Made by a program: the position numbers and the translations under genes
In this document: positions 40,887 to 49,460 of the stretch, one piece after another
Layout of the letters: each line of letters starts with the position of its first letter
How positions within the stretch are numbered: position 1 is the stretch's first letter
NCBI RefSeq assembly: GCF_009789075.1
Contig: NZ_WNXQ01000001.1
Location: 372,001-436,000, forward strand
Origin: Pseudooceanicola pacificus
GTDB lineage: Bacteria > Pseudomonadota > Alphaproteobacteria > Rhodobacterales > Rhodobacteraceae
DNA: 64,000 nt
Reading direction: 5' to 3'
The notes under the pieces: model-generated
What the model was told of the DNA's origin: nothing
Databases searched by the model: none
Seen by the model: only the letters and a program-made list of their open reading frames with translations

Positions 40887-41040
40887 GGGAGGAGCCACCT
40901 TTCAGATGCCCGCGCGGGGGGCGTGAAGACCGCGGGAGCATAGCATCGGTCCCGCCATTTGCACCATATCTCTTGCTCAGGCCGCACATCCTCACGCAGC
41001 GGTGACCGCGCGTGTGCGGTACTGCATCCAAAGGGTGCAG

Positions 41041-41502
41041 TCAGCGCGTCTCGGTGCGGCTGCGCAGAAAATCACGGACATCCAGCAGGGATTTCTCGTC
41101 CATCGAGACATAGACCAGCGACATGTTGGTCCGCTCGCGCACCATGCTGCCGGGATAGGGCAGATAGCTCAGCTCGCGCGAGCCGAAGGAGGGCGAGGCG
41201 GTGCCGACCTGCCATTCGGTCTTCAGCTCGACATCCACCAGTTTCAGCGCGGTCTTGCCGCCCTGTCCGGGGCGCTCGAACGGGACTCCGGCGAGACGCA
41301 GATAGGCCGACTTGTCCGCCGCCTGCACGAAGCCGTCGATGAATTGCGTGGTCAGGACCTGCAGATCCGCCGCGTCGTCCTCGGGGTGGAGGTGCGAATG
41401 CAGGTGATCGGCGTCGTGGTGGTGGTTGTGGTCGTGCGGGTGGTGGTCGTGGCGATGGTGGCCGTAGTCGTGGGAATGCGAATGCGGGTGATCATGAGGC
41501 AT
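41041..41502 (-). CDS. Histidine-rich protein downstream of gdmH, candidate nickel-handling protein
   Basis: 153 residues. The first 40 contain 19 histidines with interspersed Asp (MPHDHPHSHSHDYGHHRHDH...), a pattern of metal-storage or metallochaperone tails. Residues about 46-153 form a soluble alpha/beta domain (DLQVLTTQFIDGFVQAADKS, ALKLVDVELKTEWQVG, TNMSLVYVSMDEKSLLDVRD) I do not recognise; it has no cysteine, signal peptide or helix anchor. AAGGAA precedes the ATG. It is the last minus-strand gene after the guanidine hydrolase, which needs nickel, so nickel storage or delivery is inferred but unproven. Confidence 0.7.
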   Translation of the reverse strand: MPHDHPHSHSHDYGHHRHDHHPHDHNHHHDADHLHSHLHPEDDAADLQVLTTQFIDGFVQAADKSAYLRLAGVPFERPGQGGKTALKLVDVELKTEWQVGTASPSFGSRELSYLPYPGSMVRERTNMSLVYVSMDEKSLLDVRDFLRSRTETR

Positions 41503-41935
41503 GTCGTGGTTCCTTGATCAGGACAGAGGGGATCGGGCGCATTGGCTGCCCAGCATCCCGGCTGTCGGTTGCGTGGACCGCGCCCTGCCCTCCCGGCGCA
41601 GAGGGCCGCGCCCTCTGGGCGGGCGCGGCGAGACGGCGGCGCCGGGGCGGTTTGTCGTGGAAGCATCGGATGACGGGCCTGCTGCGCAAGACATCGCCAA
41701 AGCGCCCTTCCGCGCGGAGGGGAAGGCGCGGCCCGGGACTGGCCGCCCCGCGCCCAAGGGTTGAAATGCGGATGCCCGGGACGGGAAAGGCGTCGCCATC
41801 CGGCAGCCAGGGCCGGGGACTACCGGGCCAGAAGTGTTGCGCGGCAGGCAGGCCGACGGGCTGCTTGCCGGCCCGCACCCGGGCCGGGCCGCCGCGCCGG
41901 TCAGCCTCTCGCCAACCGGCCCTCCGATCCCGCCC
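41503..41935. other. GC-rich spacer between gdmH and the His-rich gene
   Basis: 433 bases without a supportable gene. It holds a perfect hairpin AGAGGGC-CGC-GCCCTCT (41600-41616) and one copy of a repeat also found at 44215-44250. No convincing promoter was seen for the His-rich gene, which would otherwise depend on readthrough. Confidence 0.5.
41671..41707 (+). repeat. Dispersed intergenic repeat, copy A
   Basis: The core running from TGACGGGCCTGCTGCGCA to GACATCGCCAAAGCGCCC matches copy B on the opposite strand (44215-44250) at about 31 of 37 positions by eye. Both copies lie in non-coding spacers that flank the ATPase-gdmH pair, making them inverted repeats around it. Confidence 0.5.
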
Positions 41936-43174
41936 TTACTTCGCATTCGACCAGCGTTTCCCCTCGAATTCGCCATGCGGGATGCTCACCGGCTTGTCGA
42001 TATGCTGCTTGTGCTTGCCCAGCGTCCCGTTCGACACCATCGCCCCCAGCACATCCACGATCACCCGGGTGCCCAACAGCGCGGTGATGTCCGACGTGTC
42101 GTAGGGCGGCGAGACCTCGACCAGCTCCATCCCGCAGATGCCCTGCGCCGCGACCTTGGACGCCAGCGCCAGCGCCTCGCGCGGGAGGAACCCGCCAGGT
42201 TCGGGCCAGCCGGTGCCGGGCACGAAGCCGCAGTCGATCGAGTCTATGTCAAAGGACATATAGACCATGTCGACCCCGTCCCAGGCCATTTCCAGCGCCA
42301 TCTCGGCGGTCTTGTCGACGCCCATCTTCTCCATGTCCGACATGGTGATGATATTGGTCTGCCGCTCGCGCGCGACCTTCACCGCCTCGCGCGGGACCTG
42401 CCAGCCGCCGATGCCCACCTGCACCAGGTTCTTGGCCGGCACGTTGGGCATGTTGGTGGCATGGAACCACGGGGTGGTGTGCATCCGCTCGTCCAGGTCC
42501 TTTTCCTGGATGTCGGCGTGACGGTCGAAATGCACGATCCCGATCTTCTTCGAGGTGCATTCCGCGATCCCCCGCACGCAGGGGAAGCCGATGGAATGGT
42601 CGCCCCCGATCATGATCGGCAGCGAGCCCGAGCTGAACACATGGCTCACCGCGCGGCTGATCTGGTCAAAGGACTTTTCCAGGTTCGCCGGGATCGTGAA
42701 GACGTCGCCCGCATCGCAGAGCGTCATCTGCTCGCGCAGATCGACCCCGATTTCATAATTGTAGGGCGTATAGAGCGCGCTGATCTTGCGCACACCCTGC
42801 GGGCCGAACCGCGTGCCGGGGCGGTAGGTCGTGCCGCCGTCGAAGGGGATGCCCAGCACGGTCGCGTCGTAATGCTGCACCTCGGTGACGTCCTCGGCAT
42901 AGGGTGCCTTGAGGAAGGTGTTGATGCCCGCGTAATGCGGCAGCTCGCCCCGGGCGAAGGTGGGGATCGATTTGTCCTCGATGCTGTCCGCGCCGGTCAG
43001 GCCCATGCGGAGCGCCCATTTGCGTTCCTCTTCCCAGCGGTCGCCGGGGATGTCCTTTTCGGCCTGCATCGCCCGCCAGCCGCCCAGCTTGGTCAGGTCG
43101 GGATGGTGATGGCGCCGCTCGTCGCGGCCCATCAGGGCGGGGGTATGGGCGCGGCTGCGCTCGGTGCGTCTCAT
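41936..43174 (-). CDS. gdmH: Guanidine hydrolase of the ureohydrolase (agmatinase/arginase) superfamily
   Basis: 412 residues, against ~300-350 for agmatinase; the surplus is an ~80-residue N-terminal extension. All six superfamily metal ligands are present: His193 (IGGDHSIG), Asp217, His219 and Asp221 (HFDRHADIQ), Asp309 and Asp311 (SFDIDSID). The HFDRHAD variant and the blocks DERMHTTPWFHATNM and IGGWQVPREAVKV match what I recall of the nickel-dependent guanidine hydrolase GdmH of cyanobacteria. It would split guanidine to urea and ammonia. A guanidine-I riboswitch and an ABC importer lie upstream, and it overlaps the ATPase gene by ATGA. Agmatinase or guanidinobutyrase is the alternative. 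Confidence 0.82.
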   Translation of the reverse strand: MRRTERSRAHTPALMGRDERRHHHPDLTKLGGWRAMQAEKDIPGDRWEEERKWALRMGLTGADSIEDKSIPTFARGELPHYAGINTFLKAPYAEDVTEVQHYDATVLGIPFDGGTTYRPGTRFGPQGVRKISALYTPYNYEIGVDLREQMTLCDAGDVFTIPANLEKSFDQISRAVSHVFSSGSLPIMIGGDHSIGFPCVRGIAECTSKKIGIVHFDRHADIQEKDLDERMHTTPWFHATNMPNVPAKNLVQVGIGGWQVPREAVKVARERQTNIITMSDMEKMGVDKTAEMALEMAWDGVDMVYMSFDIDSIDCGFVPGTGWPEPGGFLPREALALASKVAAQGICGMELVEVSPPYDTSDITALLGTRVIVDVLGAMVSNGTLGKHKQHIDKPVSIPHGEFEGKRWSNAK

Positions 43175-43923
43175 GCGGAAAGCTCCTCGGTCTTCTGGTA
43201 GGGATAGCCGCCGTTCCGGGCGTCGAAATCGTAGGTGATCGTGGCACCATAGGCCTCGGGCGCGTCCGGATCCCAGCGGGTCTTGTCAAAGACCAGCACC
43301 CGGTCGCCCAGTTTGAAGCCCTCGGCCAGATCGTGGGTGACCATGAAGACGGTCATCCCGGTTTCGGCGCGCAGCTCGGTCAGGAAGTCGTGCATCTGCA
43401 ATCGCGTCCCCGGATCGAGCGCGCCAAAGGGTTCGTCCAGCAGCAGGATCCGCGGCTTGGCCTGCAGCGCCTGCCCGATGGCAAGCCGCTGCTGCATACC
43501 GCCCGACAGCGTCGCCGGATAGGCGCCGGCCACATGGGCAAGGCCGATCCTGTGCAGCGTCTCGTCGGCGCGCTGCAGGGCGGCGCGGCGTTCGGCCCCC
43601 GCGAACCGGCCCCAGCGGCGGGCAAAGCTTTCGCCCGCTACGATATTGTCGCGCACGGTCATGTGCGGAAAGACGGAATAGCGCTGGAACACCACGCCGC
43701 GCTCGCGCCCGGGCTCGCGGGCGGGCGGATTGCCGTCGATGCGGATGGTGCCCCGGGTCGGCTGCTCCTCGGCCAGCAGCAGGCGCAGGAAGGTCGACTT
43801 CCCGCAGCCCGAGGCGCCGACAATCGAGATGAACTCGCCCTCGGCCACATCCACGTTGACCCGCTCGATGATCGGGCGGGGGCCGTAGGACTGAAAGATG
43901 TTGCGGACCTCGACAAAGCTCAT
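43171..43923 (-). CDS. ABC transporter ATPase (nitrate/taurine type) of the guanidine-linked importer
   Basis: 250 residues. Walker A GASGCGKSTFLRLLL (about 37-51), Q-loop VVFQRYSVFPHM, signature LSGGMQQRLAIGQAL, Walker B ILLLDEPFGALD and the His switch FMVTHDLAEGF are intact. The C-terminal tail (RWDPDAPEAYGATITYDFDA) is like that of ATPases next to urea-carboxylase and guanidine genes. It hydrolyses ATP on the cytoplasmic face to power the permease encoded upstream. Its stop overlaps the gdmH start by four bases. A 445-base spacer separates it from the permease gene. Confidence 0.9.
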   Translation of the reverse strand: MSFVEVRNIFQSYGPRPIIERVNVDVAEGEFISIVGASGCGKSTFLRLLLAEEQPTRGTIRIDGNPPAREPGRERGVVFQRYSVFPHMTVRDNIVAGESFARRWGRFAGAERRAALQRADETLHRIGLAHVAGAYPATLSGGMQQRLAIGQALQAKPRILLLDEPFGALDPGTRLQMHDFLTELRAETGMTVFMVTHDLAEGFKLGDRVLVFDKTRWDPDAPEAYGATITYDFDARNGGYPYQKTEELSA

Positions 43924-44368
43924 GCTGCGGGTTCCGGGTCGGGGTGGCGCGGGGCGCGGCTGACGTGTCGGACGGCGGGCCCGCTTGTCCCCGCAAGCGG
44001 CAAGGCGGGGCGGTCTGGTCTGTGCAGCGCCGAATGCTTCGCAAGGCCAGTACGCCACAACGCCCCGGCATCACGCGACGGCGCAGGGCCGTCGGCACAC
44101 AGGAACCGCCCTTTCGCCCCGCGGCACGCCGGGCGGCGCCCGTCCGGCGCTGGCGCGCGTTCGGCCCTGAACCGCTCCACCGGAGCGTTTCCCAGACGGG
44201 CCCTCCCCCCGGGCGGGCGCCTGGCGATGTCCTGCGCCGCAAGACCGTCAATGCTGCTGTTGAGTGAACCGCCCAACACAAGCGGACCAAATGCCCTTCC
44301 ACGGTCGGGCGCGGCCCCTGCCGCCTTGGCCGAGGCGTCGGCGCGGTGACACGTCAGGCTGGCACGCA
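43924..44368. other. Long GC-rich spacer inside the guanidine transporter operon
   Basis: 445 bases between permease and ATPase genes that normally lie back to back. I see no gene. Frames here are open only because of base composition. It contains repeat copy B and a GCTCCACCGGAGC palindrome near 44174. Confidence 0.5.
44215..44250 (-). repeat. Dispersed intergenic repeat, copy B
   Basis: Minus-strand core running from TGACGGTCTTGCGGCGCA to GGACATCGCCAGGCGCCC, partner of copy A at 41671-41707 in the opposite orientation. Confidence 0.5.
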
Positions 44369-45181
44369 TCACAACCCCGCCCCCGTCCAGGGGAACGCCC
44401 GGCGCGACAGCGCCCTCAGCCCCCAGTCCATCAGGAAGGCCAGCAGCGTGATCCAGATCACGTAGGTCAGGATCACGTCCATCGCCAGATACCGGCGCAC
44501 CAGGAAGATGCGGTAACCCAGCCCGCCCTCGGCGGCGATGGCCTCGGCCGCGATCAGGAACAGCCAGGCGGGGCCCAGCCCCAGACGGATCGCCTGGATC
44601 AGCCGGGGCATCACCTGCGGCAGCACCACCCGCGTTGCGATCACCCAGGTCGAGGCGCCCAGCGTTTCCGCCTTCACGATCATTTCGCGCGGAATTTCCA
44701 GCGTGCGGGCCGACAGGTCGCGGATCATCACAGGGGCGATGCCCACCACGATCAGCACGATCTTGGACATCTCGCCCAGCCCGAAGATGATGAAGAGGAT
44801 CGGCAGCACCGCCAGCGGCGGCACCATCGAGACCACGGCGACAAACCCGCTCAGCGCCTTGCGGATATGGGGCAGCATGCCGATGGCCATGCCGAAGACC
44901 AGCGCCGACAGCGCCGCGATGCCGACGCCCAGACCCAGCCGCCGCAGGCTGTCCCAGGTGTCGTGCCAGAAGAGGATGCGCCCGGTCCGCCGGTCGCCCT
45001 GGCTGATCAGCCGGATCGCGGTGTCGAGGATGGTCGAGGGCGCGGGCAGCAGCTTGTCCTGCGGGTTCACTGCCAGGCGCATCTCGGACCCGATGACATA
45101 GGCCAGCAGCACGGCGGCAAAGGGCAGCATCGCCAGAGCGATGGCCAGCGGGCGGCCCGGGCGGCGGTTGATCAGGCGCAT
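44369..45181 (-). CDS. ABC transporter permease (nitrate/taurine type) of the guanidine-linked importer
   Basis: 270 residues with six helices and the family coupling loop (EAA motif) around KAETLGASTWVIATRVVLPQVMPRLIQAIRLGLG at residues 165-200. A periplasmic loop (about 35-75) precedes the canonical domain. One permease gene implies a homodimer. GGGGGGAT precedes the ATG. It sits between the substrate-binding protein (179-base gap) and the ATPase. Confidence 0.9.
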   Translation of the reverse strand: MRLINRRPGRPLAIALAMLPFAAVLLAYVIGSEMRLAVNPQDKLLPAPSTILDTAIRLISQGDRRTGRILFWHDTWDSLRRLGLGVGIAALSALVFGMAIGMLPHIRKALSGFVAVVSMVPPLAVLPILFIIFGLGEMSKIVLIVVGIAPVMIRDLSARTLEIPREMIVKAETLGASTWVIATRVVLPQVMPRLIQAIRLGLGPAWLFLIAAEAIAAEGGLGYRIFLVRRYLAMDVILTYVIWITLLAFLMDWGLRALSRRAFPWTGAGL

Positions 45182-45360
45182 GCATATCCCCCCAGCCCGT
45201 ACCGTGGCGCGGCGCGACAGCCCCCGGCCCCGGCGCGCAACAGGGCGGCCGGCCGGCCCGGAACCCCGGTCCGCCGCTGCCGCGGCACGGTGCAGCGGGC
45301 AGAAGCCCCCGCCGCGCCGCCGGTCGCGCGATATGCCGGATCAGGCCGCATGGCAGCCGC

Positions 45361-46422
45361 TCAGAGAGCGCCGTCCGCCGCCATCTGCGCATAGGTCGTG
45401 TCGTAGCGGAACTGCACATTGCCCGCGTCGCCCGTGGTCCCGCCATCGGGATATTCGACCCCGACGAAATCGGCCGAGGGCGCGCCCTCGCCCAGGATGC
45501 CCTTGTCGAAGAGGAAGTTCGCGACGGACACCATCGTCTCTTTCAGCGCGGGGTTCTCGGCAAAGGCCACCGCCTCGGCGGGATCGTAGAACATCGCCGT
45601 CGCCTCCAGCTGGCGCTTGTAGCCCTCCAGGTCGGTGCCCGCGGCCTCGGCCATCTCGGTCAGGGCGGCGTCGCCCTCGGGCGTGTCCGAGGACATCAGC
45701 GCCATCAGCTCGTACCAGGCGCCGGTCACGGCCTTGCCGAAATCGGGGTTGTCGGCCAGCGTCTGGGTGTTCACGAACATGATGTCGATGATCTCGCCCG
45801 GGATGTCCGCGCTGTCGTAGACCTTGTTGGCATCCGGCATCTCAAGGATCGTCTCGACCAGCGGGTTCCAGGTCACCACCGCCTCGACATCGTCGGTGCC
45901 GAAGGCCGCGACCATATCCGCGTCGGAGGTGTTGATCACGCCGCCCAGGTCCGCCTCGCCCAGCCCGACCTGTTCCAGCGCGCGCGCGAGCAGGTAGTGC
46001 GAGACCGAAAGCTCCACCAGGTTCACCGGCTTGCCCGCCAGGTCGGCCAGGCCGCCGTCGCCCTTGAGGATGATCGCGTCATTGCCGTTGGAATAGTCGC
46101 CCACGATCAGCGCGGTGCTGTCCACGCCGCCGCCCGCCGGGATCGACAGGGCGTCCATATTGGTGGCCGACACGCCGTCAAAGGCGCCCGCCGTGTACTG
46201 GTTGATCGACTCGATATAGTCGTTGATCTGCACGATCTCGACGTCGATGCCGTATTTCTCGGCCCATTTGTCCATGATGCCCGAGGTTTCGAGATAGCCC
46301 CAGGGCATCCAGCCGGCATAGATCGACCACGCCAGCTTGAATTCCGTCTTGGCCTCGGCCGCCGCCATCGACGCCGAAAGCGCCAGTGCAGCCGCAGAGG
46401 TGGCAAGGATAGTCCTGATCAT
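45361..46422 (-). CDS. ABC transporter substrate-binding protein (NMT1/TauA-like) of the guanidine-linked importer
   Basis: 353 residues with a signal peptide (1-22, ending ASMAAA) and a periplasmic-binding fold: FKLAWSIYAGWMPWGYLETS at the N terminus, QYTAGAFDGVSATNMDAL, VNLVELSVSHYLLARALEQVG, and FGTDDVEAVVTWNPLVETI. Proteins of this type lie beside urea carboxylase and guanidine genes. Trp residues in the first strand could stack on a planar cation such as guanidinium. GGGGAG precedes the ATG. It is the first gene after the riboswitch, so it should respond to guanidine. Confidence 0.88.
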   Translation of the reverse strand: MIRTILATSAAALALSASMAAAEAKTEFKLAWSIYAGWMPWGYLETSGIMDKWAEKYGIDVEIVQINDYIESINQYTAGAFDGVSATNMDALSIPAGGGVDSTALIVGDYSNGNDAIILKGDGGLADLAGKPVNLVELSVSHYLLARALEQVGLGEADLGGVINTSDADMVAAFGTDDVEAVVTWNPLVETILEMPDANKVYDSADIPGEIIDIMFVNTQTLADNPDFGKAVTGAWYELMALMSSDTPEGDAALTEMAEAAGTDLEGYKRQLEATAMFYDPAEAVAFAENPALKETMVSVANFLFDKGILGEGAPSADFVGVEYPDGGTTGDAGNVQFRYDTTYAQMAADGAL

Positions 46423-46510
46423 GTCTTTTCTCCCCGTCACGTCCCGCCGCATGATGGTCGCCGGTCCGCTGGCGGAACTGAAAGAGAATGGGCGCGGACG
46501 GACCGACGCA

Positions 46511-46620
46511 GTATTCTCCCGGGATTTTGGCCCGCCGTGTGCCCGCGCGGAATTTGCCGCGCCGGTGGCAACTTCTCGGACCTGACCCCGACCGTGACCG
46601 GCCGGGCGGAACCCTAAGTG
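46511..46620 (-). ncRNA. Guanidine-I (ykkC) riboswitch
   Basis: Read on the minus strand, the leader of the substrate-binding-protein gene shows the conserved blocks of the guanidine-I aptamer in order. CTTAGGGTTCCG is followed by a GC-rich hairpin, then CAGGTCCGAGAAGTTGCCACC-type sequence (46590-46560 region), a variable GC hairpin, ACACGGCGGG, CCAAAAT and finally CCCGGGAGAATAC. The aptamer ends about 90 bases before the start codon. Binding of guanidinium normally turns such genes on; the expression platform is not clear, since no T-rich terminator follows. Confidence 0.88.
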
Positions 46621-46883
46621 CCCTGCCCCCTCAGCCAAGCACGGCCCCGGCCCGGGGTGTGAGGGTTTTCTGCATGTGCCCCCCGGTTCATGCCGGAAAT
46701 CGCCCAAAAAGCGGGCGTCCCGGCGGCGATCCGCCCGCCCGGGCGCCATCCGGCGGGGCCGGGCCGGGGGACAGGAGCGGTGAAATGGCGCGGAATCGGG
46801 CGTTTGCGGGCTTGCATTTCGTCCGTCCCGGTTGAACTGTCCTGTCGCGTACTGACCGCCGCGTCGGCCACATCGAGGTATTC
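46621..46883. other. Divergent promoter region between the guanidine operon and modABC
   Basis: 263 bases. It must hold the minus-strand promoter of the riboswitch transcript and the plus-strand modA promoter. A TTGAAC at 46832 lacks a good -10 box, and I see no clear ModE-type palindrome. Confidence 0.4.
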
Positions 46884-47666
46884 ATGTTTCACAGTGTTTT
46901 CCCTTCCGCCCGGGGCATATCCGGGTGGATCGTCGCCGGCCTGCTGACCCTGGCAGGGCCGGTGCAGGCTGCGGATCTGACGATCTTTGCCGCCGCCAGC
47001 CTGCGCACCGCGCTCGATTCGGTGGTCGAGGAATGGGAAAGCACGACCGGACTGGACGCCGCCGTATCCTATGCCGGCAGCTCGGCCCTGGCCCGGCAGA
47101 TCGCCGAGGGCGCGCCGGCGGACATCTTCATTTCGGCCAATGTGGGCTGGATGGATCATGTCGCGGCACTTGGGCTGGTCAAGCAGGGCACGCGGGTCGA
47201 CATCCTGTCCAGTTCGCTGGTGCTGATCGCGCCGGGGGCCGAGGGCACGCCGATCCCGATCACCCAGGGGCTGAACCTTGCGGGCATGCTGGATGGCGGC
47301 AAGCTGGCGATGGCCCTGGTCGATGCGGTTCCGGCGGGCATCTACGGCAAGGCGGCGCTGACCGGGCTGGGCCTGTGGGACAGCGTGGCCGAACAGGTGG
47401 CCCAGGCCGACAACGCCCGGGCCGCGCTGGCGCTGGTCGCCACGGGCGAGGCTCCGCTGGGCGTGGTCTATGCCACCGATGCCAATGCCGAACCGCGCGT
47501 GCATGTGGTGGGCACCTTCCCCGCCGAAAGCTATCCGCCGATCATCTACCCCGCCGCGATCATCGCGGATGGCAATGTCGCGACGGCCACGGAGTTCATG
47601 ACGATGCTGCGCGGCGACATCGCCGACGAGATTTTCGCCGCCGAGGGCTTCACCGTACTGGAGTGA
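46884..47666 (+). CDS. modA: Molybdate ABC transporter substrate-binding protein
   Basis: 260 residues with a signal peptide (about 1-29, ending GPVQA) and the ModA fold: LTIFAAASLRTALDSVVEEW, SYAGSSALARQIAEGAPADIFISAN, and YATDANAEPRVHVVGTFP. The two conserved Ser of the molybdate site are present in AAASL and GSSAL. It delivers molybdate or tungstate to ModBC. modB follows after one base. Confidence 0.95.
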   Translation: MFHSVFPSARGISGWIVAGLLTLAGPVQAADLTIFAAASLRTALDSVVEEWESTTGLDAAVSYAGSSALARQIAEGAPADIFISANVGWMDHVAALGLVKQGTRVDILSSSLVLIAPGAEGTPIPITQGLNLAGMLDGGKLAMALVDAVPAGIYGKAALTGLGLWDSVAEQVAQADNARAALALVATGEAPLGVVYATDANAEPRVHVVGTFPAESYPPIIYPAAIIADGNVATATEFMTMLRGDIADEIFAAEGFTVLE

Positions 47667-47667
47667 C

Positions 47668-48366
47668 ATGACCGGCTTGCTTGGCCCCGAGGAATGGCAG
47701 GCGGTGGCCCTGTCGCTGAGGGTTGCCTTCTGGGCGACGCTCCTGTCGCTGCCGCCGGGCATCGCCGTGGCCGTGGCGCTGGCGCGCGGGCGTTTCCCGG
47801 GGCGGCAGCTGCTCAACGTGCTGGTGCATCTGCCGCTGGTGCTGCCGCCGGTTGTCACGGGCTACCTGCTGCTGCTGACCTTTGGCCGGCGCGGGCCGGC
47901 CGGGGCCTTTCTGGCGGATACCTTCGGCATCGTGCTGGCCTTTCGCTGGACCGGCGCGGCGCTGGCGGCGGCGATCATGGGCTTTCCGCTGATGGTGCGC
48001 GCCATCAGGCTGGCGGTCGAGGCGGTGGACAGCCGACTGGAGGAAGCCTCGGCCACGCTTGGCGCCTCGCCCCTGCGGGTGTTCCTGACGGTGACCCTGC
48101 CGCTGATCCTGCCCGGGGTGCTGGCCGGGGCGATCCTGTCCTTTGCCAAGGCCATGGGCGAATTCGGCGCCACCATCACCTTTGTGTCCAACATCCCGGG
48201 CGAGACGCAGACCCTGCCCTCGGCGATCTATGCCTTCCTGCAGGTGCCGGGGGGTGAATCCGCGGCGCTGCGGCTGGTGCTGATCTCGATCGCCATCGCG
48301 ATGCTGGCGCTTGTCGCCTCGGAATACCTGTCGCGGGCCGTGGCCCGGCGGATCGGCGCGGTATGA
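47668..48366 (+). CDS. modB: Molybdate ABC transporter permease
   Basis: 232 residues with about five to six helices and the ModB signature EFGATITFVSNIPGETQTLP near residue 172. The coupling motif EEASATLGASPLRVFLTVTLP lies around residue 125. Forms a homodimer in the inner membrane. Starts one base after modA and overlaps modC by ATGA. Confidence 0.95.
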   Translation: MTGLLGPEEWQAVALSLRVAFWATLLSLPPGIAVAVALARGRFPGRQLLNVLVHLPLVLPPVVTGYLLLLTFGRRGPAGAFLADTFGIVLAFRWTGAALAAAIMGFPLMVRAIRLAVEAVDSRLEEASATLGASPLRVFLTVTLPLILPGVLAGAILSFAKAMGEFGATITFVSNIPGETQTLPSAIYAFLQVPGGESAALRLVLISIAIAMLALVASEYLSRAVARRIGAV

Positions 48367-49460
48367 GCCTGTCGGTCGCGATACGCCACAGCTTTGGCAA
48401 TGTGACCGTCGACGCGGCATTTGACGCGCCCGAGGGGGTGACCGCCCTGTTCGGACGCTCCGGCGCGGGCAAGACCACGGTGGCCAATGCGGTGGCCGGG
48501 CTGCTTCGCCCGCAATCCGGGCGAATCGTGCTGCAGGGCCGGGTGCTGCTGGACAGCGGGCGGGGCGTGAACCTGCCGCCGCACCACCGCCGCATCGGCT
48601 ATGTCTTTCAGGAGGGGCGGCTGTTCCCGCATCTCTCGGTGCGCGGCAACCTGGCCTATCCCGGGCGGTTCGCCGGGCGGCGCCCCCCGGCGGCAGAGTT
48701 CGACCGCGTGGTCGGGATGCTGGGTATCGGGGATCTGCTGGACCGGCAACCGCAACGCCTGTCGGGCGGCGAGAAGCAGCGCGTCGCCATCGGCCGCGCC
48801 CTGCTGTCGGCCCCCGAGGCGCTGCTGATGGACGAACCGCTTGCCGCGCTCGACGCCGCGCGGAAGGAAGAGATCCTGCCCTATCTCGAAGCGCTGCGCG
48901 ACGAGGCGCGGATCCCCATCCTCTATGTCTCGCATGCGATGGACGAGGTCGCGCGCCTGGCCACCACGCTGGTGCTGATGTCGGGCGGGCGGGTCCTGCG
49001 CGCCGGACCGGCGGCCGAGCTGCTGGCCGACCCCGAGCTGGCCCCGATGATCGGCCTGCGCGACGCCGGGGCGCTGCTGTCGGGGCGGCTGACCCGGCAT
49101 CACCCCGACGGGCTGAGCGAGGTCGCCGTGTCGGGCGGCCCGCTGTTCCTGCCGCATGTGGCGGCGGATCCCGGCACCGCGCTGCGCATCCGGATCGAGG
49201 CGCAGGACATCATCCTGTCGCGCAACCGGCCCGAGGGGCTGTCGGCGCTGAACATCCTGCCCGCCACGGTCACCGCCGTGCACAGCGGCGAGGGCCCCGG
49301 CGTGATGATCCAGCTGCGCACCGGGGACGAGATGCTGCTGGCCCGCCTCACCCGCCGCTCGGCCGAGGCGCTGGCCCTTGTCCCGGGCACGCCCTGCCAC
49401 GCGGTGGTCAAGTCGGTGGCGGTGGCGCGCGGCAATGTGGGCCGGGCAAAAAACGACTGA
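48363..49460 (+). CDS. modC: Molybdate ABC transporter ATPase
   Basis: 365 residues. Walker A GRSGAGKTTVANAVAGL (about 31-47), signature LSGGEKQRVAIGRAL, Walker B LLMDEPLAALD, and a C-terminal TOBE/molybdopterin-binding-like regulatory domain (about 290-365, LNILPATVTAVHSGEGPGVM). Such a domain can sense molybdate and slow transport when it is plentiful. Overlaps modB by four bases. Confidence 0.95.
   Translation: MSLSVAIRHSFGNVTVDAAFDAPEGVTALFGRSGAGKTTVANAVAGLLRPQSGRIVLQGRVLLDSGRGVNLPPHHRRIGYVFQEGRLFPHLSVRGNLAYPGRFAGRRPPAAEFDRVVGMLGIGDLLDRQPQRLSGGEKQRVAIGRALLSAPEALLMDEPLAALDAARKEEILPYLEALRDEARIPILYVSHAMDEVARLATTLVLMSGGRVLRAGPAAELLADPELAPMIGLRDAGALLSGRLTRHHPDGLSEVAVSGGPLFLPHVAADPGTALRIRIEAQDIILSRNRPEGLSALNILPATVTAVHSGEGPGVMIQLRTGDEMLLARLTRRSAEALALVPGTPCHAVVKSVAVARGNVGRAKND

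Follow-up and report, generated by a model that had tools for sequence, protein, structure and literature searches.

The gdmH operon of Synechocystis sp. PCC 6803, which includes sll1077, hypA/hypB-type genes and the ATP-binding cassette (ABC) transporter genes sll1080-1082, is the described system with which we compare here a locus of the alphaproteobacterium Pseudooceanicola pacificus. The locus belongs to a window of 64,000 nucleotides (contig NZ_WNXQ01000001.1, positions 372,001 to 436,000). It is read from the minus strand of the window between positions 46628 and 41041 and combines a guanidine-I riboswitch, three genes of an ABC importer, a gene for a GdmH-type guanidine hydrolase and, as the fifth gene, one for a small His-rich protein. 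As far as the available passages of the Synechocystis reports go (PMC12186494, PMC8390497), both systems have a riboswitch, an ABC importer, GdmH and accessory metal genes in one unit. In the cyanobacterium, known here from these papers, the accessory genes are of HypA/HypB type, whereas in P. pacificus their place is taken by a single unrelated His-rich protein.

The locus of Nitrospira inopinata also has a guanidine-I riboswitch and a GdmH-type enzyme (structure 9fek, 539.6 bits), but it differs from ours in having an APC permease instead of the ABC importer, and the passages of PMC11410670 available to us report no chaperone gene. Nickel loading of this enzyme is called 'unclear' there (PMC11410670). 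Synechocystis GdmH and metformin hydrolase are described as dependent on co-encoded nickel chaperones in passages of three papers (PMC12186494, PMC8390497, PMC11399263). The operons for metformin and dimethylguanidine hydrolases (MefH, DmgH) resemble ours in that a nickel-dependent ureohydrolase is encoded there together with nickel chaperones; judging by excerpts of PMC11399263, they differ in that the enzymes are heteromeric, more distant in sequence (130-134 bits) and use HypA/HypB.

A preliminary description of this stretch had listed the riboswitch, the ABC importer genes, the guanidine hydrolase and the His-rich gene as one operon, and all of these elements are indeed present. The classes of sensor, importer and enzyme form a largely known architecture, and the riboswitch and the importer agree with known biology. 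What is new is the fifth gene as a partner of GdmH: given no role in the preliminary description, it is the most informative part of the operon. We consider it probable that the locus is a guanidine-assimilation operon whose fifth gene codes for a dedicated metal-maturation factor of GdmH, with nickel binding, docking and delivery as its predicted functions. The sequences themselves provide the aptamer, the gene identities, the conservation of the operon, the nearly exclusive pairing with gdmH, the N-terminal motif and the negative result for HypA in the loci searched.

The His-rich protein and its pairing with gdmH

The His-rich gene (41041-41502, minus strand) codes for a protein of 153 aa, a candidate nickel-maturation factor by its linkage to gdmH and its N-terminal X-His motif. 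We examined 124 loci carrying this gene, which were reduced to 115 distinct ones by removal of nine duplicate contigs. gdmH is located in the same piece in 113 of the 115. The exceptions are L043, where the gene lies at a contig edge and the gdmH of the genome at the end of another contig, and L059, which is a fragment. The fragment of the His-rich gene in L059 (4091-4397) has a guanidine-I aptamer next to it, and gdmH is not matched there; either an operon was deleted and left this remnant, or the assembly is faulty.

Among 198 genomes of the family (Rhodobacteraceae), an intact His-rich protein is encoded in 27, exactly those 27 that have gdmH. The two genes adjoin in 26 of them, and the 27th (G098) has the contig edge at this place. 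Counting any match to the His-rich protein gives 28 genomes, the additional one (G159) having a fragment of the gene beside a riboswitch. gdmH was found in 11 of 385 genomes of the class, and the ten besides P. pacificus all have the His-rich gene beside it. Two loci, L152 and L153, where the genes are adjacent by their coordinates, stand outside the further locus analyses. In the phylum set gdmH is present in 7 of 398 genomes, and the profile of the His-rich protein finds a match in each of these seven; one extra genome (G382) gave a weak, partial and uninspected profile match (E 1.2e-4, model positions 3-63 only).

The same picture was obtained starting from gdmH. We took the best 80, close relatives, of at least 566 contigs matching the GdmH of the window. 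In all 80 of these best contigs the His-rich gene is found no more than 300 nt from the gdmH match, and in 77 of them all three ABC genes were matched in the fetched stretch. Outside the family, the His-rich gene stands beside gdmH in 14 of 14 alphaproteobacterial loci; 13 of these were found via gdmH and one, on pNGR234b of Sinorhizobium fredii, via the His-rich protein (34% identical in the part that matched). The three ABC genes are present in 13 of the 14, while L149 lacks them and has the aptamer directly in front of gdmH. The pair also occurs on plasmids, in Limimaricola and S. fredii. By these counts, the His-rich protein is a conserved and nearly exclusive partner of GdmH in Alphaproteobacteria.

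In the distinct loci the two genes overlap in 69 cases, are separated by 0-30 nt in 32, by 31-300 nt in ten and by more than 300 nt in two, the remaining two having no gdmH in the piece. These classes rest on the chosen start codons, and overlaps number 67 if counted from the MPHD or MH codon. The window belongs to the two loci with a gap above 300 nt (433 nt).

The protein starts with an MPHDHPHSHSH... tract, which is followed by a conserved domain some 115 residues long. This core and the very N-terminus are the near-invariant parts. Ahead of the core there are between 1 and 28 His residues in the 118 of 124 loci that allowed its start to be placed, and L170, L171 and L174 have just 3, 4 and 1. 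In L045 and L138 the protein has a second His-rich tract at its C-terminus. Of the 115 distinct loci, 104 have the N-terminal sequence M[P/A]HD and eight have MH (or VH, read from GTG), although in some the motif begins a few residues downstream of the chosen start; the other three are L150, L169 and the fragment L059. The His at open reading frame (ORF) position 3 shows no change across 81 of 81 aligned rows, a few of which were made to start at the MPHD codon. Since methionine is usually cleaved off in front of Pro and Ala but kept in front of His, the mature chain would begin with X-His in both groups, with His as the predicted second residue.

This arrangement would resemble that of HypA, where the nickel site is formed by the N-terminal amine and His2 of the invariant MHE motif, and where insertion of a Leu before this His leaves the protein deficient in nickel binding (passages of PMC5557546). 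In both proteins the His would be the second residue of the chain, next to the free amine, as predicted for the mature form of ours. The differences from HypA are the His tract of the window protein, the lack of profile similarity and the lack of cysteine, which means that there is no CxxC zinc site. Homology to HypA was considered and rejected: neither PF01155 nor any other Pfam family was matched, and hhalign comparison with six HypA gave a probability of 0.7%, a test of weak power since the profiles are shallow. As no sequence relation is detectable, the likeness to the HypA N-terminus would be a matter of convergence.

Beyond HypA, the His-rich protein matches no Pfam or NCBIfam family, and eight diverse relatives matched no Pfam family at E values up to 1. 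A sequence search of PDB gave no significant match (best E 0.58 with the protein and 0.089 with the profile). The core was modelled by AlphaFold2 with a mean predicted local distance difference test (pLDDT) score of 83.9, 61 of the 115 residues scoring at least 90, and a predicted template modelling score of 0.72. The model consists of two helices, long strands and a C-terminal helix. Foldseek found no significant fold match, with best E values of 0.07 for the whole chain and 0.14 for the core. The six top matches of the core all come from COMM-domain proteins or the human CCC/Commander complex, but none is significant (E at least 0.14 for the core and at least 0.07 for the whole chain), and a known fold of the conserved domain was rejected on these values. 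COMM/CCC chains recur among the non-significant matches of both models, which also include a bacterial COMMD-like protein. We found no description of the His-rich gene in the literature searched, i.e., in titles, abstract openings and passages; the founding 2022 GdmH paper lay outside this search.

The putative guanidine hydrolase and its possible nickel supply

The hydrolase (412 aa; 41936-43174, minus strand; PF00491, 260.9 bits) scores 550.4 bits against Synechocystis GdmH (7esr/7oi1) and 539.6 against the Nitrospira guanidinase (9fek), the next enzyme being at 178.0. Its identity to these two solved guanidinases is 65% and 63%. The best agmatinase chain in PDB reaches 133 bits, compared with 550 for the guanidinase. 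An agmatinase identity was rejected, as the TIGR01230 score of 171.8 bits is below the cut-off of 174.3 (by only 2.5 bits) and the PDB scores are lower; arginase and formimidoylglutamase identities were rejected with NCBIfam models below their cut-offs.

The preliminary description had drawn attention to a long ureohydrolase with an HFDRHADIQ variant and six metal ligands. Both are found: neither the ligands H193, D217, H219, D221, D309 and D311 nor W323 vary when the sequence is aligned with the two solved guanidinases. The solved enzymes have HFDRHVDTQ in place of HFDRHADIQ, a difference of two residues, neither of them a metal ligand. In our reading of the alignment, W323 would correspond to the active-site Trp (Trp305/Trp313) named in passages of PMC11410670. 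This invariant Trp is part of the motif GTGWPEPGG, at which the three other ureohydrolases compared have GTGTP.

These three enzymes (proclavaminate amidinohydrolase, guanidinobutyrase and guanidinopropionase) were among the 37 rows, none of them an agmatinase, of a quickly built maximum-likelihood tree, with support from the Shimodaira-Hasegawa-like approximate likelihood ratio test (SH-aLRT) only. The hydrolase belongs to a clade of 28 alphaproteobacterial rows (SH-aLRT 99). The branch joining Synechocystis GdmH with this clade has a support of 92, and the split from the other ureohydrolases a support of 100. In this phylogeny, a check proposed in the preliminary description, the hydrolase groups with the solved guanidinases and apart from guanidinobutyrase and the other two. 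The assignment as a GdmH-type guanidinase is thus supported by sequence comparison.

HypA was searched for near gdmH by tblastn with six alphaproteobacterial HypA sequences in 98 gdmH loci, a set from which L030 and L032-L060 of the family are absent. These loci gave no HypA match; HypB was not searched for there. At the level of whole genomes, 42 genomes with the His-rich gene were tested, a set without G159, which has a fragment. HypA is found over the cut-off in 12 of the 42 and in none of the other 30. It is far from gdmH in these 12: the two lie on separate contigs in 11 genomes, and in G005 they are some 250 kb apart. In the 36 of 42 genomes which are at least 90% complete with at most 5% contamination, HypA has a match in 11, one of them (G052) below the cut-off. 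No HypA was found in the genome of P. pacificus itself, which is weak evidence given an assembly completeness of 66.85%. This genome codes for two cobW-domain proteins, one of them next to urease; we read them as a putative CobW and a putative UreG beside urease. The urease alpha subunit is encoded in 42 of 42 genomes with the His-rich gene, making the route to ammonium complete.

The following mechanism can be proposed. Guanidine binding to the aptamer would switch on either the transcript itself or the translation of it. The substrate-binding protein, permease and ATPase would import guanidine, and the dinuclear GdmH-type hydrolase would split it into urea and ammonium, with the remaining nitrogen to be freed from urea by the urease of the cell. 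The N-terminus of the His-rich protein (mature Pro-His-Asp or Met-His and the variable His tract) would bind Ni(II), while its conserved C-terminal domain would dock on apo-GdmH and deliver the nickel. The fifth gene product would in this way have the role for GdmH that falls to HypA/HypB-type chaperones in the case of the cyanobacterial enzyme. The sense-import-hydrolyse route for guanidine, put forward in the preliminary description, holds as far as sequence reaches. A maturation factor is the best reading of the fifth gene because its product is a small, probably metal-binding protein encoded beside a nickel enzyme whose relatives have known chaperones. We are less sure, though still inclined to think, that the protein represents a new nickel-metallochaperone family, unrelated to HypA and co-evolved with alphaproteobacterial GdmH, with a convergent X-His site and no GTPase partner.

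Riboswitch, importer genes and operon organisation

The aptamer (46514-46628, minus strand) matches RF00442 over the full length of the model (1-107 of 107) with 71.5 bits (E 9.9e-11) against a gathering score of 63 in cmscan. It is the sole Rfam match at the gathering score in the window. A ykkC guanidine-I aptamer had been suspected in the leader of the substrate-binding protein gene and passes the covariance-model check; it lies in the stretch where it had been placed, only reaching 8 nt past the end given for it.

Of the 115 distinct loci carrying the His-rich gene, 104 have a guanidine-I aptamer. A pattern search matched 64 of 124 loci, and the remaining 60 were scanned by a custom covariance model trained on the window together with 38 pattern hits. 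Wherever the pattern search gave a distance, the aptamer is upstream of the substrate-binding protein match, 77-171 nt before it. L117 was counted as positive from a match running off the contig end. Five of the loci with no aptamer (L043, L052, L068, L138 and L171) have a contig edge before or inside the leader, and the stretch of L134 is without the substrate-binding protein. In L051, L054, L057, L172 and L175 no aptamer was found at E 0.01.

A possible expression platform, consisting of a CTGC arm and an inverted repeat, is located at 46441-46511 of the minus strand. CTGC (46508-46511) can close the aptamer on GCAG (46623-46626), and these two arms are kept across leaders. The inverted repeat GTTCCGCC (46471-46478) / GGCGGGAC (46441-46448) is situated directly before the Shine-Dalgarno-like GGGGAGA, and its strict form GUUCCGCC/GGCGG(A/G)AC precedes the Shine-Dalgarno sequence in 47 of 107 leaders. 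In 38 leaders, which are our own choice from 76 and mostly the longer ones, each of the eight pairs is standard in 33-37. This comes from sequence identity with few compensatory changes, so the repeat is no proof of a hairpin. The 3' arm of the repeat could alternatively pair with GGGUUCCGCC of the aptamer itself. These alternative pairings suggest a switch near the ribosome-binding site as a possible mechanism. An intrinsic terminator as the expression platform was rejected, as none was found in 40900-46900. Folding the leader as a single sequence gave no useful information (z -0.75 and -0.56).

Downstream of the leader, and likewise on the minus strand, are the genes for the substrate-binding protein (45361-46422, 353 aa; TIGR03427, 522.8 bits at a cut-off of 333.9), the permease (44369-45181, 270 aa; PF00528, 71.5 bits) and the ATPase (43171-43923, 250 aa; PF00005, 118.5 bits). 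The start of the first was set at 46422, the start of the longest ORF being at 46749. Guanidine ABC importers have been described in such operons (passages of PMC12186494). The ATPase gene and the hydrolase reading frame overlap by 4 nt.

Two larger spacers, also of the minus strand, are found in the operon, one of 445 nt between the permease and ATPase genes (43924-44368) and the one of 433 nt between gdmH and the His-rich gene (41503-41935). Both share an inverted 29-nt repeat (41671-41699 / 44222-44250, 86%). The pattern of this repeat is at chance level within the window; in the whole genome it occurs in nine places versus none for the reversed pattern. A DNA search found three partial copies of the spacer between gdmH and the His-rich gene (41510-41930) elsewhere in the genome, at 76-81% identity. 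The repeat is possibly a dispersed intergenic element inserted into an otherwise compact operon. The divergent neighbour (46884-49460, plus strand) has an SBP_bac_11 match, followed by a permease and an ATPase read from ORFs, and may be a molybdate-type ABC transporter.

Variant operons were observed in two genomes of the family (L057:5794-8760 and L054:5189-7549). They contain a divergent ABC set, with a substrate-binding protein 43% identical. Between this set and the gdmH-His pair they code for a PuuE-like protein of the polysaccharide-deacetylase family (below cut-off) and for two short-chain dehydrogenases. The variant operon of L057 also includes a CMD-family protein. Both may release guanidine from another compound. 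The gdmH match of L054 (7619-8836; genome G194) is interrupted by an internal stop (one TAG), and the frame of the His-rich gene downstream is open. On a plasmid of the actinobacterium Rubrobacter indicoceani (L154, 6851-14460), a guanidine-I riboswitch is found together with a gdmH-like gene, a sodium:solute symporter, formamidase and urease genes, and the stretch has no match to the His-rich gene.

Alternative readings and significance

Several points weigh against a dedicated maturation factor of GdmH. The His-rich gene was not seen in four of four actinobacterial GdmH loci, and comammox bacteria are reported in passages of PMC11410670 to lack a recognisable nickel-loading protein, so GdmH can apparently be metallated by other routes. 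HypA encoded elsewhere in 12 of the 42 genomes might serve GdmH. The negative hhalign result with HypA and the lack of a significant Foldseek match belong here as well. L169 and, by its chosen start, L150 have no X-His start, a later ATG in L150 giving MH. The 433-nt gap to gdmH makes co-expression in the window less certain. Finally, the His-rich gene has an 11-nt overlap with the gdmH stop in 51 of 115 loci, which constrains the MPHD codons. M[P/A]HD is, however, present in 37 and MH in 7 of the 46 loci without overlap. As the motif is kept in 44 of these 46, MPHD is not merely a by-product of the overlap, and conservation solely through it was rejected.

The variable number of His residues (1-28) makes storage possible: the protein could store or buffer nickel (or zinc) for the high demand of both guanidinase and urease, with no specific delivery to GdmH. 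A low-complexity tract of such variable length would suit this role, and urease is likewise encoded in all 42 genomes. We consider it unlikely, as an intact protein is restricted to the same 27 of 198 family genomes as gdmH and adjoins it in 26 of these, and the conserved domain and the members with 3, 4 and 1 His (L170, L171 and L174) argue for more than storage. Slightly less likely still, the protein could be a structural or regulatory subunit of GdmH affecting its stability, oligomer state or substrate gating, with metal binding being incidental. The one-to-one pairing, the frequent start/stop overlap, which suggests coupled expression, and the strong conservation of the domain would fit a subunit. 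On the other hand, the Nitrospira enzyme is reported in passages of PMC11410670 to be a homohexamer resembling Synechocystis GdmH, and the His at ORF position 3 does not vary in 81 of 81 rows (with the few starts set to the MPHD codon).

Two further alternatives concern the substrates. A substituted guanidine, and not free guanidine, as the main substrate of the hydrolase could be expected from the ease with which ureohydrolases switch substrate, as exemplified by metformin and dimethylguanidine hydrolases (passages of PMC11399263), and from the two short-chain dehydrogenases and the deacetylase-like enzyme added in the variant operons of L054 and L057. This is improbable in view of the 65% and 63% identity to solved guanidinases, the guanidine-I aptamer in front and GTGWPEPGG in place of the GTGTP of the three other ureohydrolases. 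Transport of urea is suggested by the name of TIGR03427, 'putative urea ABC transporter substrate-binding protein'. It is very improbable, with a guanidine riboswitch in 104 of 115 distinct loci, upstream of the substrate-binding protein wherever the distance was measured, and with guanidine importers of the ABC type described for such operons (PMC12186494, in part).

Where guanidinases with no recognisable nickel chaperones obtain their nickel is an open question in print for comammox, as stated in passages of PMC11410670. The small gene and gdmH together constitute a two-gene system in which metal loading is directly testable. If the fifth gene does code for a maturation factor of GdmH, it would add a new family to the nickel chaperones and provide a helper for the expression of active guanidinases.

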